DNA of 51,550 nt from Candidatus Faecalibacterium intestinigallinarum (lineage in GTDB: Bacteria; Bacillota; Clostridia; Oscillospirales; Ruminococcaceae), in assembly GCA_019113345.1 (NCBI GenBank), contig DXHQ01000086.1, positions 1 to 51,550 on the forward strand, written 5' to 3'. The translations under genes and the position numbers were made by a program. Within the stretch, counting starts at the first letter, position 1, and every line of letters begins with the position of its first letter. This document shows positions 5,110 to 49,388 of the stretch, in pieces. The notes below the pieces were generated by a model. The model did not search any database, was not told the origin of the DNA, and saw only the letters and a list, made by a program, of their open reading frames with translations.

Positions 5110-5820
5110 ATGGCATTTTTCCAAAACCTGTGGGCGGAGCTTGTCAGCGAGTTCACCGCCACCTTCATCGCCGAACAGCGCTACCTGCTGTTCCTGAACG
5201 GCCTCAAGACCACCCTGATCGTCGCGTTCGGCGCGGCGGCGATGGGCGTCGTGCTGGGCTTTGTCATCGCCTACATCCGCACCACCCATGACCACACCGG
5301 GCACCTGCGCATCCTGAATGCGCTGTGCAAGCTCTACCTGACCGTCATCCGCGGCACCCCCACCATGATCCAGCTGCTGATTATGTACTTTATCATCTTC
5401 GGCTCGGTCAAGATCGACAAGGTGCCGGTGGCTGTCCTGGCCTTTGGCATCAACAGCGGGGCATATGTGGCCGAGATTTTCCGCAGCGGCATCATGAGCA
5501 TCCCTCCGGGACAGATGGAAGCCGCCCGCAGCCTTGGCCTCAACTACACCCAGGCCACCTGGAAGATCATCCTGCCCCAGGCGGTCAAGAACGTCCTGCC
5601 CGCGCTGGGCAACGAGGTGATCGTCCTGCTCAAGGAGACCTCCATCAGCGGCTACATCGCCCTGCAGGACCTGACCAAGGCCGGCGACATCGTCCGCAGC
5701 CGCACCTACAGCCCCTTCTTCCCCTACATCTCGGTGGCGCTGATGTATCTGGTGCTGGTGCTGGGACTGGAAAAGATTTTGGGCTATCTGGAAGGGAGGC
5801 TGGCGCGCAGTGACCGCTAA
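5110..5820 (+). CDS. Polar amino-acid ABC transporter permease (HisM/GlnP type)
   Basis: 236 residues from the ATG at 5110, chosen because AAGGAGGG lies seven bases upstream; a longer in-frame extension to 5059 has no RBS. The protein has several hydrophobic membrane segments and the cytoplasmic EAA loop [18 protein letters not shown] around residue 136, which docks on the ATPase. [20 protein letters not shown] and [13 protein letters not shown] are typical of the His/Glu/Gln/Arg permease family. It overlaps the ATPase start by 11 bases, so the two are translationally coupled. Confidence 0.92.
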
Positions 5821-6583
5821 CAAGGAAAAGATCATCGAGGTGCGGGGGCTGAAAAAGACCTACGGCGGCGAGAAAAAGCGCGGCTACAAGGGCCTGACCC
5901 CCAAGCTGGACGTTCTGAAGGGCATCGACATCGACATCTACCGCGGCGACGTGGTCTGCCTGATCGGCCCTTCGGGCTGCGGCAAATCCACCTTTCTGCG
6001 CTGCCTGAACCGGCTGGAAAAGCCGACCGGCGGCACCATCCAGTTTGAGGGCGCGGTGGTGGACGAGGCCCACATCGACAAGCTGCGGCAGAAGATGGGG
6101 ATGGTGTTCCAGCACTTCAACCTCTTCCCCCACATGACGGTGAAGGAGAACCTCGAGATGGCCCCCGTCCTGCTCAAGCTCAAGAGCAAAGAGGAGGCCG
6201 CCAAAAGGGCGGACGAGCTTCTGGCCCGGGTGGGCCTGTCGGACAAGGCGGACGCCTACCCGGCTAGCCTGTCGGGCGGGCAGCAGCAGCGCATCGCCAT
6301 CGCGCGGGCGCTGGCCATGGACCCCGACGTCATTCTGTTTGACGAGCCGACTTCGGCCCTCGACCCCGAGATGGTGGGCGAGGTGCTGGCCTTGATGAAG
6401 GAGCTGGCCCACACCGGCATCACCATGCTGGTGGTGACCCACGAGATGGGCTTTGCCCGCGAGGTGTCCAACCGGGTCATCTTCATCGACGAGGGGATCA
6501 TCCAGGAGGACGAGCCCCCCGAGGAGCTGTTCTCCAACCCCAAGAACCCCCGGCTGAAAGCGTTCCTCTCCAAAATGCTATAA
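5810..6583 (+). CDS. Polar amino-acid ABC transporter ATPase (GlnQ type)
   Basis: 257 residues from a GTG at 5810 that overlaps the permease gene; RBS GGGAGG is about ten bases upstream. Walker A is GPSGCGKST, the Q-loop is [11 protein letters not shown], the signature is LSGGQQQR, Walker B is [14 protein letters not shown], and the switch His is in VVTHEM. The region from [10 protein letters not shown] to LDVLKG near residues 17-35 is some ten residues longer than in standard GlnQ proteins, a small lineage-specific insert. It energises uptake together with the permuted binding lipoprotein and the permease. The exact amino acid is unknown. Confidence 0.93.
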
Positions 6584-6585
6584 AA

Positions 6586-6766
6586 TGCTCCAGGGGGGAC
6601 CCTTTTCTGCCTGCTGCGCAGGTCAGAAAACCTTCCCCCCTGGTATCCCCCTTTTAGACAAAATTCAACGCAGAACCGCGCACTCGCCCTGACGGGCTCG
6701 CACACTCTCTGCGCTGAATTTCCCTGTATGTGTCCCACCCGTCCGCACATGTCGGCCGGGCGGGAC
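6586..6766 (+). repeat. Structured ~180-nt element, family B, copy 1
   Basis: Three successive stems are visible. Stem I is CCAGGGGGG ... CCCCCCTGG, enclosing TTTTCTG-CCTGC ... GCAGG-TCAGAAAA. Stem II is AAATTCAACGCAGA ... TCTGCGCTGAATTT, enclosing ACCGCGCAC and GCACACTCT. Stem III is GTCCCACCCG ... CGGGCGGGAC around CGCACATGTCG. A second copy at 47512-47685 keeps the loop and junction motifs but changes the stem sequences with compensating bases. It lies just after the glutamine-type ATPase gene. Function is unknown: a structured RNA or a hairpin-type mobile repeat. Confidence 0.7.
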
Positions 6767-6773
6767 TTTTTTT
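6732..6773 (+). terminator. Rho-independent terminator of the amino-acid importer operon
   Basis: This is stem III of the structured element: a GC-rich hairpin, GTCCCACCCG pairing with CGGGCGGGAC with one A/C mismatch, followed immediately by seven T residues. Confidence 0.7.
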
Positions 6774-6794
6774 GACAGTCTGCGAACCTATAGG

Positions 6795-6914
6795 TTACTT
6801 CTTGCGCAGGTACTTGATGCAGGCCAGGATGACGGCCAGGTAGCAGCCGCACCGGAGCAGGTTCATGACGGCGGTCAGGACCATGCCGGCCCCGATCATG
6901 ATGGTGGGTGACAT
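6795..6914 (-). CDS. 39-residue single-pass membrane micropeptide downstream of dnaK
   Basis: A short frame starting MSPTIMIGAGMV and ending CIKYLRKK. It has a perfect AAGGAGGTG ribosome binding site seven bases before the ATG (6912-6914) and begins 26 bases after the dnaK stop codon. Residues about 7-34 are hydrophobic with two cysteines near the middle (RCGC at 21-24) and a third at 32, and the C-terminus is basic, which predicts a single helix with the C-terminus inside. The RBS quality and operon position make it a likely real gene; I do not recognise the family. Confidence 0.65.
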   Translation of the reverse strand: MSPTIMIGAGMVLTAVMNLLRCGCYLAVILACIKYLRKK

Positions 6915-47511: not shown

Positions 47512-47685
47512 TGCCTCTAGGGGGACCCATTTCTGCCCGCATACGCGGGTCAGAAATTCCTCCCCCTAGTGTCCCCCGGGGACAAAATTTCCCGGCGAAC
47601 CGCGCACGCACCTTTGGCGCGCACACTCTCGCCGGAAAATTTCCCTGAAGGTGTTGCATCTGACGCGCATGTCGCCAGATGCAAC
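47512..47685 (+). repeat. Structured ~180-nt element, family B, copy 2
   Basis: Stem I is CTAGGGGG ... CCCCCTAG with inner ATTTCTG-CCCGC ... GCGGG-TCAGAAAT. Stem II is AAATTTCCCGGCGA ... TCGCCGGAAAATTT, with the unchanged ACCGCGCAC and GCACACTCT motifs inside. Stem III is a perfect GTTGCATCTG ... CAGATGCAAC around CGCGCATGTCG. All three stems differ from copy 1 (6586-6766) by paired changes. It lies between the T-box terminator and the leuA RBS, so it is part of the leuA leader RNA. Confidence 0.7.
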
Positions 47686-47735
47686 GTGCATGTTGTCAGC
47701 TTCAATGTAGAACGCATGTTTAGGAGGAAACGAAC

Positions 47736-49388
47736 ATGATGGACGCCACCAAGTACGCACCCGGATATTACCCCGCACCCGCCGGCTATGACAGCTGGGT
47801 CAAGAAGGATCACATCGAAACAGCCCCCGCCTTTTGCAGCGTCGACCTGCGCGACGGCAACCAGGCGCTGATCGTCCCCATGAGCCTGGAAGAAAAGATC
47901 GAGTTCTTCAAGATGCTGGTCCGGATCGGCTTTAAGGAGATCGAGGTCGGCTTCCCGGCTGCCAGCGAGACCGAGTACGAGTTTCTGCGGGTGCTGATCG
48001 AGCAGAATATGATCCCCGAGGACGTCACCGTCCAGGTGCTGACCCAGTGCCGCGACCACATCATCCGCCGCACCTTCGAGGCAGTCAAGGGCGCGCCCCG
48101 CGCCGTCATCCACTTCTACAACTCCACCTCGGTGGCCCAGCGGGAGCAGGTCTTCCACAAGTCCAAGGAGGAGATCAAGCAGATCGCCACCGACGGCGCC
48201 AAGCTGGTCAAGCAGCTCAGCGAGGAGTACGAGGGCAACTTCCTGTTTGAGTACAGCCCCGAGAGCTTTACCGGCACCGAGCCGGACTATGCGCTGGAAG
48301 TCTGCAACGCCGTCATCGACATCATGCAGCCCACCCCCGACCGGCCCATGATCATCAACCTGCCGGTCACCGTCGAGATGAGTATGCCCCACGTCTACGC
48401 CAGCCAGATCGAGTACTGCTCGGCCAACCTCCACAGCCGGGACAGCGTCATCCTCTCCACCCACCCCCACAACGACCGCGGCACCGGCGTCGCCTGCGCC
48501 GAGCTGGCCGTCCTGGCCGGCGCGCAGCGGATCGAATGCTGCCTGTTCGGCAACGGCGAGAGGACCGGCAACGTGGACGCCGTCACCCTGGCCATGAATA
48601 TGTACAGCCACGGCGTCGACCCCAAGCTGGACTTCTCCGATATGCCCGCCATCTGCGAGCTGTACGAGCGGGTCACCCGGATGCACGTCTACGAGCGCAC
48701 CCCCTACGCCGGGCAGCTGGTCTTTGCCGCCTTCTCGGGCAGCCATCAGGACGCCATCGCCAAGGGGATGGCCTACCGCAAGGCCACCGGCGAGCACCGC
48801 TGGACCTGCCCCTATATCCCCGTCGACCCCCACGACATCGGCCGCACCTACGACGCCGACGTCATCCGGATCAACAGCCAGAGCGGCAAGGGCGGCATCG
48901 GCTTTGTGCTGGAGCAGAACTACGGCTACAACCTGCCCGCCAAGATGCGGGAGGACCTGGGCTACAAGGTCAAGGCCGTCTCCGACCACAGCCACAAGGA
49001 GCTCTCGGCCTCCGAGGTCTGCCGCATCTTTGAGCAGGAGTACCTCAATAAGCAGAAGCCCTTCAACGTCGCCGAGGCCCACTTCATCCAGAAGAGCGGC
49101 ATCACCGCGTCGGTCACCCTCGAGATGAACGGCGCCACCCGCGAGGTGGTGGCCATCGGCAACGGCCGTCTGGACGCCGTCGCCAACGCCATCCAGACCG
49201 CCACCGGGATGGACTTCCACCTCGAGCAGTACGCCGAGCACAGCCTGGACGGCGGCTCGACCTCCCGCGCAGCCTCTTATGTGGGCCTGGTCTGGGGCGA
49301 CGGCACCGCCACCTGGGGCGCCGGCACCGACACCGACATCATCGTGGCCGGCATCCGCGCGCTTGTTTCGGCCATCAACAATAAGTAA
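47736..49388 (+). CDS. leuA: 2-isopropylmalate synthase
   Basis: 550 residues from the ATG at 47736; TAGGAGGA is eight bases upstream. Catalytic [12 protein letters not shown] (Arg39, Asp40), metal ligands [10 protein letters not shown], and a C-terminal regulatory domain (about 420-550, [20 protein letters not shown]) where leucine normally inhibits. Length and the [14 protein letters not shown] start place it in the long LeuA type, as in actinobacteria and fungi. It condenses acetyl-CoA with 2-ketoisovalerate, the first committed leucine step. First gene of leuACDB. Confidence 0.95.

Follow-up and report, generated by a model that had tools for sequence, protein, structure and literature searches.

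A family of structured repeats in Faecalibacterium, probably non-autonomous IS1182-type mobile elements that target terminators

Introduction

Whether intergenic DNA that folds into paired stems is a functional RNA or a mobile repeat is the question raised by two stretches lying 41 kb apart in the window, by which is meant the whole 51,550-nucleotide stretch of DNA from Candidatus Faecalibacterium intestinigallinarum analyzed here. The first-pass annotation of this DNA reported that the two stretches align end to end, that their stem arms differ by compensating changes and that selection for structure explains these changes better than recent duplication; both an undescribed structured RNA and a hairpin-rich mobile repeat were put forward. 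Covariation-based RNA searches could mistake mobile elements of this kind for riboswitches, and the family provides a well-sampled case in which to ask whether covariation in a mobile repeat comes from RNA function, from transposase recognition or from palindrome-correcting mutation. In the last of these, the arms of an imperfect palindrome are copied by template switching. Group IIC introns have an insertion preference behind terminators, and REPs are located near stop codons.

In this study, the repeat was analyzed in the genome of the window (G000, 2.21 Mb) and in related genomes using a covariance model, pattern searches and reading of the insertion sites. The preferred reading, to which we assign a probability of about 0.8, is that the stretch is a non-autonomous mobile element (MITE) of IS1182 type, ∼215 bp in length, consisting of four hairpins and targeting terminators.

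Results

Copies in the window

Copy 1, a T-type copy on the forward strand, spans stem I through the right terminal repeat (6588–6782), and the covariance model R1 described below matches 6588–6774 with 204 bits. Stem I and its inner hairpin (CCAGGGGGGA..TTCCCCCCTGG; TTTTCTGCCTGC/GCAGGTCAGAAAA) occupy 6590–6643 (+), followed by stem II at 6661–6722 (+), with the internal-loop motifs ACCGCGCAC (6675–6683) and GCACACTCT (6700–6708), and by stem III with the loop CGCACATGTCG and a run of seven T at 6732–6773 (+). Stem III is terminator-like by eye and is absent from the output of a simple terminator scan. The right terminal repeat GACAGTCTG, which is common to IS1182-type elements, lies at 6774–6782 (+), while this copy lacks the left repeat (CAGCGTGTCG, stem 0). 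Directly before copy 1, and separate from it, is the gene for the ATP-binding protein of an ABC importer (5810–6583, +), of the amino-acid type according to its best NCBIfam matches, all of which are under their cut-offs. A 39-codon ORF of membrane-like sequence on the reverse strand (6795–6914) ends just past copy 1, and DNA similar to this region is present at the same place in two relatives (G004 and G016).

Copy 2 (47515–47693, +; 168 bits with R1) has neither a T run nor terminal repeats. It is positioned in the leader of leuA, between a T-box (RF00230; 47210–47476, +) on its 5′ side and the ribosome-binding site; the T-box and the leuA gene on its 3′ side (2-isopropylmalate synthase; 47736–49388, +; NF002991, 785 bits against a cut-off of 455) are both separate from the element. 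LeuA is 98% identical to the Candidatus Faecalibacterium faecigallinarum protein, and the named matches that come next also belong to Faecalibacterium.

The end-to-end alignment was confirmed, and both copies fold with the loop and junction motifs that had been listed for them. The folding energies of 6586–6766 and 47512–47685 are ∼7 SD below those of dinucleotide shuffles (z = −7.1; none of 200 as good). At the Rfam gathering score the T-box was the sole match in the whole window and no family matched the element; at E ≤ 5 around copy 1 there was a single sub-threshold microRNA model, on the opposite strand and outside the element.

Family size and covariation

The loop pattern ACCGCGCACN{6,20}GCACACTCT occurs 36 times in the genome of the window, compared with zero occurrences of the reversed pattern. 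R1 was built from 25 full copies among these 36 matches, the other 11 having no first stem or being cut by a contig end. With R1, at least 126 matches at E ≤ 0.01 were obtained in this genome (150 of 959 candidates scored), of which 64 reach at least 82 bits and 50 reach at least 167 bits, corresponding to full length; several of the 64 strong matches are located at contig ends, where two pieces may represent one copy, and many of the weaker matches are antisense on the same palindromes. Intact copies span CAGCGTGTCG to TTTTTTGACAGTCTG: CAGCGTGTCG is the 5′ arm of stem 0, from which the element continues to stem III, the T run and GACAGTCTG.

The compensating changes extend well beyond the two copies in which they had been noticed, with two-sided changes in 24 of the 53 base pairs of the 25-copy alignment. 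In these copies 97.0% of the paired cells are paired, against 86.8% in shuffles and 29.6–45.9% with slid partners. The covariation score was reached by none of 500 shuffles, whereas the count of further pair types was reached by 194 of 500. Since the 25 copies were chosen by the exact loop motif, this motif and the three helix 4 pairs inside it are invariant by construction. In a set of 90 copies collected by model or pattern, the exact stem II loop motif is present in 55 and most of the other 35 differ by a few letters (commonly ACCATGCAC or ACCGTGCAC); the stem III loop CGC[AG]CATGTC is present in 73 of the 90.

Between the orthologues L182 and L260 the inner hairpin is swapped, each version also being found in several other copies. 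Because whole hairpins are exchanged between copies, the pair counts are not independent events, and part of the apparent compensation is whole-hairpin exchange. The two window copies are indeed not recent duplicates of each other, as had been argued; the covariation can fairly be read as selection for structure, with hairpin exchange and palindrome-correcting mutation as further candidates.

Placement, orientation and tail types

In G000, 63 copies were analyzed for orientation, excluding L008 and L021, which are truncated at contig ends. A simple codon model gives an upstream gene call for 58 of them, and 51 of these genes share the strand of the copy (p = 2 × 10⁻⁹ against one half). Two of the seven exceptions follow same-strand RNA genes, namely rnpB (L026) and tRNA-Ser (L035), and L026 is the sole apparent divergent gap.

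T-type copies have a T run at their end, and the others GGACGGATTGAAA or a similar tail. Among the 14 copies that lack a T run, seven have a same-strand gene within 60 nt downstream, compared with four of the 38 T-run copies (p = 0.005); when four borderline tails are re-sorted by motif, the figures become 10 of 16 and 1 of 36 (p = 5 × 10⁻⁶), both the re-sorting and the 60-nt cut-off having been picked after the data were seen. Copies inside operons or before a native terminator often carry the tail without a T run.

Six copies at stop codons (L182, L192, L013, L191, L189 and L004) each have, by eye, a different stem 0, which in some cases appears to be formed by host bases with the stop codon in its loop; no 3′ arm of this variable stem was seen by eye in the empty sites of relatives. 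At another locus an IMPDH RNA (RF02994; L201, 1832–1940, −) is upstream of a mosaic copy on the same strand.

Empty sites, remnants and orthologous copies

All 30 other genomes of the genus match the flanks of copy 1, and in the ten relatives printed the element is absent and an ordinary terminator-like hairpin follows the importer gene. Copy 2 is absent from all 15 leuA leaders read, and R1 finds no copy in 25 leuA loci. A riboswitch or leader role for leuA was rejected on the absence from these 15 leaders. G004 has at least 42 copies; of the 14 that were read, one occupies a site that also holds a copy in G000. Nine G000 sites located right behind a stop codon are empty, remnant-like or orthologous in relatives, as judged by eye, with remnant-like sites at L237, L248, L269, L270 and L274 and orthologous copies at L260, L271 and L277. 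At the L034 site, G016 carries the element in the opposite orientation and G004 carries a remnant. The family is thus mobile, and the suggestion of a hairpin-rich mobile repeat was correct, with empty sites in relatives and copy numbers ranging from zero to at least 42 between species.

A decay test on the orthologous pairs gave one near-identical pair, one hairpin swap and one pair in which stem I of the partner is broken. In the near-identical pair, L004 (G000) and L271 (G013), 188 of 193 aligned columns are identical, with one internal substitution and the rest end gaps, whereas the 182 bases upstream are 90% identical and an ungapped comparison downstream gives 133 of 163. This near-identity beside a diverged flank may point to a role at this site or to local recombination. 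By eye, the copy stands before a gene resembling a biotin carrier.

Duplication of terminator hairpins

Many T-type copies with stem 0 are located at intrinsic terminators, within the T tract or immediately after it. Among the 90 copies from eleven genomes, a hairpin duplication score of at least 18 is found in nine and of at least 13 in 11, where shuffled partners expect 0.0 and 0.46, respectively; in the remaining ∼79 a clear duplication was not found. In G220, a genome of another genus, 10 of 20 copies were read, nine of them testable and one without a recognizable left end. Eight of the nine show duplication of a whole hairpin of 24–41 bp, four of them letter-perfect, with scores of 22–41 against a maximum of 14 in mismatched flanks. 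The junctions there read hairpin|CAGCGTGTCG ... GACAGTCTG|hairpin or are close to this, and at L405 the two hairpins of the duplicated terminator differ by a compensated pair. Stop-codon copies without a T run, including copy 2, have neither terminal repeats nor a duplication.

Relation to IS1182 elements

By scanning viral contigs for the right end and then pairing the ends, two longer elements were found, L351 and L354, with lengths of 1,502 and 1,501 bp and ends CAGACTGTC..CTTTTTTGACAGTCTG (the left end is also given as CAGACTGTCAAAG). They are flanked by exact hairpin duplications of 25 and 26 bp, and their ORF encodes an IS1182-family transposase (NF033551, 410 bits against a cut-off of 270). 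The right end of the repeat, CTTTTTTGACAGTCTG, is identical to theirs, and its left end, CAGCGTGTCGAAAAA, is close to CAGCCTGTCGAAAAAG of L393 (Subdoligranulum) and L394 (Thermocaproicibacter), where CAGCCTGTCGAAAAAG, which resembles the start of stem 0, stands behind a hairpin and one flank is visible. A match to a known transposon end, which the first-pass annotation had named as evidence against its proposal, was therefore found in part, and the internal stems are left unexplained by it. The element's own left and right repeats agree at only seven of nine positions, and the IS1182-like repeats are missing on both sides in copy 2 and on the left side in copy 1.

Among eight IS1182-type copies read, four have a hairpin duplication, two have different hairpins and two have one visible flank. 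Related transposase genes lie between hairpin duplicates in L396 (Sutcliffiella) and L397 (a Streptococcus phage), and unlike hairpins flank L395 (E. faecalis) and L392 (a viral contig). Just inside the GACAGTCTG end of L351 is a short hairpin, in which four perfect pairs are followed by a mismatch and then by an A/T helix including the T run; it recalls stem III and the T run of the repeat but is weaker. Stems I–II were seen at none of the IS1182 ends read. The repeat itself, being ∼215 bp of hairpins, contains no transposase gene, and a transposase query over the window and the loci examined returned L351 and L354 only. Elements of this type are likely to be the autonomous partner.

Distribution across genomes

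The search of related genomes with R1 revealed further copies, in 11 of 61 genomes including that of the window, all 11 belonging to the 31 genomes of the genus; in the other 20 of the 31, no copies were found at the stricter filters used. Three genomes (G000, G004 and G016) each reach at least 42 copies. A wider R1 search covered 394 genomes of the order at six scored candidates per genome and gave further copies in G187, G220 and G223, of genera outside Faecalibacterium, at 39.6–46 bits. A loop pattern identifies G187 (13), G220 (20) and G369 (2) among the same 394, and the reversed-pattern control gave one match across all of them.

Copies in other genera have stem arms quite unlike those of Faecalibacterium copies and similar loops: the stem II loop is CGCGCAC/GCACACT in G187, G220 and G369, and the stem III loop is CGCATGTC or near to it. 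Copies found by the loop pattern contain the loop by construction; this does not apply to the four copies in G187 and G220 that were detected first with R1. Stem 0 (AGCGTGTCG..CGACACGCT) is present in G220 copies and in one G223 copy. The least certain relatives are those in G223, whose stem II loop is different. In G187, nine of the ten copies read were analyzed for stem II (L399 was left out, its stems I and III not being intact), and four versions of the stem were found, all fully paired, with two-sided change in five of seven pairs; the covariation score was reached by none of 500 shuffles and the count of two-sided pairs by 179 of 500.

Searches of phage and plasmid collections with copy 1 gave no matches. 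In the viral contigs, five loop-pattern matches, none of them found by R1, and ten stem-0 pattern matches were judged on reading to be due to chance. The viral contig L337 (783–815) has both ends fused as CAGACTGTCAAAAAAGTCTTTTTGACAGTCTG, directly behind a terminator-like hairpin, which is possibly a minimal element. A second hairpin-rich repeat family (GCAGCGCGGGC..GCCCGCTTGCAAA, with CTGTTTCTGCCGCAGGCAGCGGC in some members) is inserted inside the element at L023, L024, L029, L009, L015 and L034, between or inside its stems; L206 of G004 is the L023 site without these inserts. On an uncultured Subdoligranulum contig (L086, 2400–2413, −), TTTTTTGACAGTCTG ends a different intergenic hairpin repeat beside leuA, and other repeat families may, from this case, share the same termini.

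Discussion

The ends, the target, the orientation, the hairpin duplication in part of the copies and the loss at other sites are established at the level of sequence. In a plausible course of insertion, the target of an IS1182 transposase supplied in trans would be a hairpin, present as an extruded cruciform or as a terminator in single-stranded form; the enzyme would join the element to the base of this hairpin, and repair would then copy the hairpin as a whole. Stem III with its T run would give the terminator back, and insertions behind genes would therefore do little harm; the native terminator could then decay or be lost. Such a course would fit copy 1, in which stem 0 and the old terminator are gone and the native terminator seems to have decayed. 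Where transcription must continue, the element would carry the tail without a T run. The family would thus insert into terminators and supply one itself, with a second form without a T run where transcription continues. The transposon-like ends, terminator-hairpin duplications and empty sites leave the idea of an undescribed structured RNA, understood as a gene or riboswitch, without support as such.

A different possibility is that the element is kept for the host as a functional RNA, such as a 3′ UTR or intercistronic stabilizer, a processing site or a source of RNA, its mobility being a mere route of arrival. Sense placement behind genes would be expected of such an element, as would a tail type that suits its context (10 of 16 against 1 of 36 with a near downstream gene, at a cut-off chosen post hoc), and the recurrence of the loop motifs on different stems in other genera, also in R1-found copies, points the same way, together with L004 and L271, near-identical between two species where the upstream flank differs by ∼10%. 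However, remnant-like decay, seen by eye at several of the same sites in relatives, and the 20 genus genomes without the element argue against host maintenance, which we regard as decidedly unlikely. Mobility by another route is very improbable: hairpins in sense orientation behind terminators would also be expected of a REP-like repeat dependent on a Y1 (RAYT/IS200) transposase, or of a retroelement inserting behind terminators in the manner of group IIC introns, and some poorer carriers have RVT_1 (G021, G013 and G019, one) or a Y1 fragment (G019 and G013). Nevertheless, Y1_Tnp (PF01797) and RVT_1 (PF00078) each have zero matches in the three richest genomes, G000, G004 and G016 (84–93% complete), on which both enzymes were rejected as movers, and the IS1182-like termini and hairpin duplications also speak against this route.

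The origin of the paired stems may be considered apart from the mode of transposition. The covariation could be a product of mutation rather than of selection, with template switching in palindromes copying one arm onto the other and gene conversion swapping hairpins. The inner hairpin exchanged whole between L182 and L260, the compensated pair between the duplicated terminators of L405 and the four block versions of the stem II arms in G187 are all consistent with such processes. We nevertheless consider this explanation unlikely, since the internal loops of stem II stay unpaired and near one motif (exact in 55 of 90 copies), whereas palindrome correction would be expected to bring them into pairing, although this argument is weaker than the 25-copy alignment suggests, that set having been chosen by the exact motif. 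On the IS1182-type reading, the stems may stay paired through movement of folded copies only or through a further role of the core as RNA; transposase recognition of hairpins, an RNA role at transcript ends and hairpin-correcting mutation are the candidates for the core structure. A tentative and rather doubtful extension is that a selected, transposon-borne module of structured RNA or single-stranded DNA is made up of stems I–II (loop near CGCGCAC/GCACACT) and stem III (loop near CGCATGTC), is common to several genera and is spread by IS1182-type ends; the module might act in cis at transcript ends, its terminating and read-through forms being tuned to the ends and interiors of operons.

Comparison with known systems

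In the open-access literature, a scope outside which most subscription papers fall, no description was found of this element, of any structured MITE of IS1182 type or of a comparable Faecalibacterium element. The papers on the bcr1–bcr18 repeats of the Bacillus cereus group (PMC3446304, PMC6542083) describe intergenic, lineage-restricted repeats of 100–400 bp, the commonest in many copies, located in UTRs and operons and in some cases having conserved secondary structure, all of which resembles the present family. Their mobility is tied there to TTTAT motifs. In contrast to the bcr repeats, the present element targets terminators and has IS1182-like ends. With the REP/BIME, BOX, RUP and SPRITE elements, as presented in PMC3733652, PMC3049150 and PMC10969869, it shares extragenic hairpins behind genes and terminator-like members, whereas it differs in its much larger four-hairpin unit, whole-terminator duplication and lack of a Y1 match in its own genome.

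The element also resembles the IS1182 family, in which the discussion of PMC5678879 lists IS1272. The right terminal repeat and the hairpin target are shared, as are a whole hairpin duplicated beside the ends in some copies and a short hairpin with a T run inside one end (L351); unlike IS1182 elements, the repeat is a MITE without a transposase, with a structured core of ∼190 bases unseen at the IS1182 ends read. In the IS1272 study (PMC5678879), inverted repeats are reported to be targeted and the hairpin is replaced without duplication, whole duplication appearing as a modelled alternative only. The present family provides a natural series of insertions in which the whole terminator hairpin is duplicated, four of them letter-perfect in one genome, and the proposed hairpin-directed IS1182 transposition is therefore directly testable.
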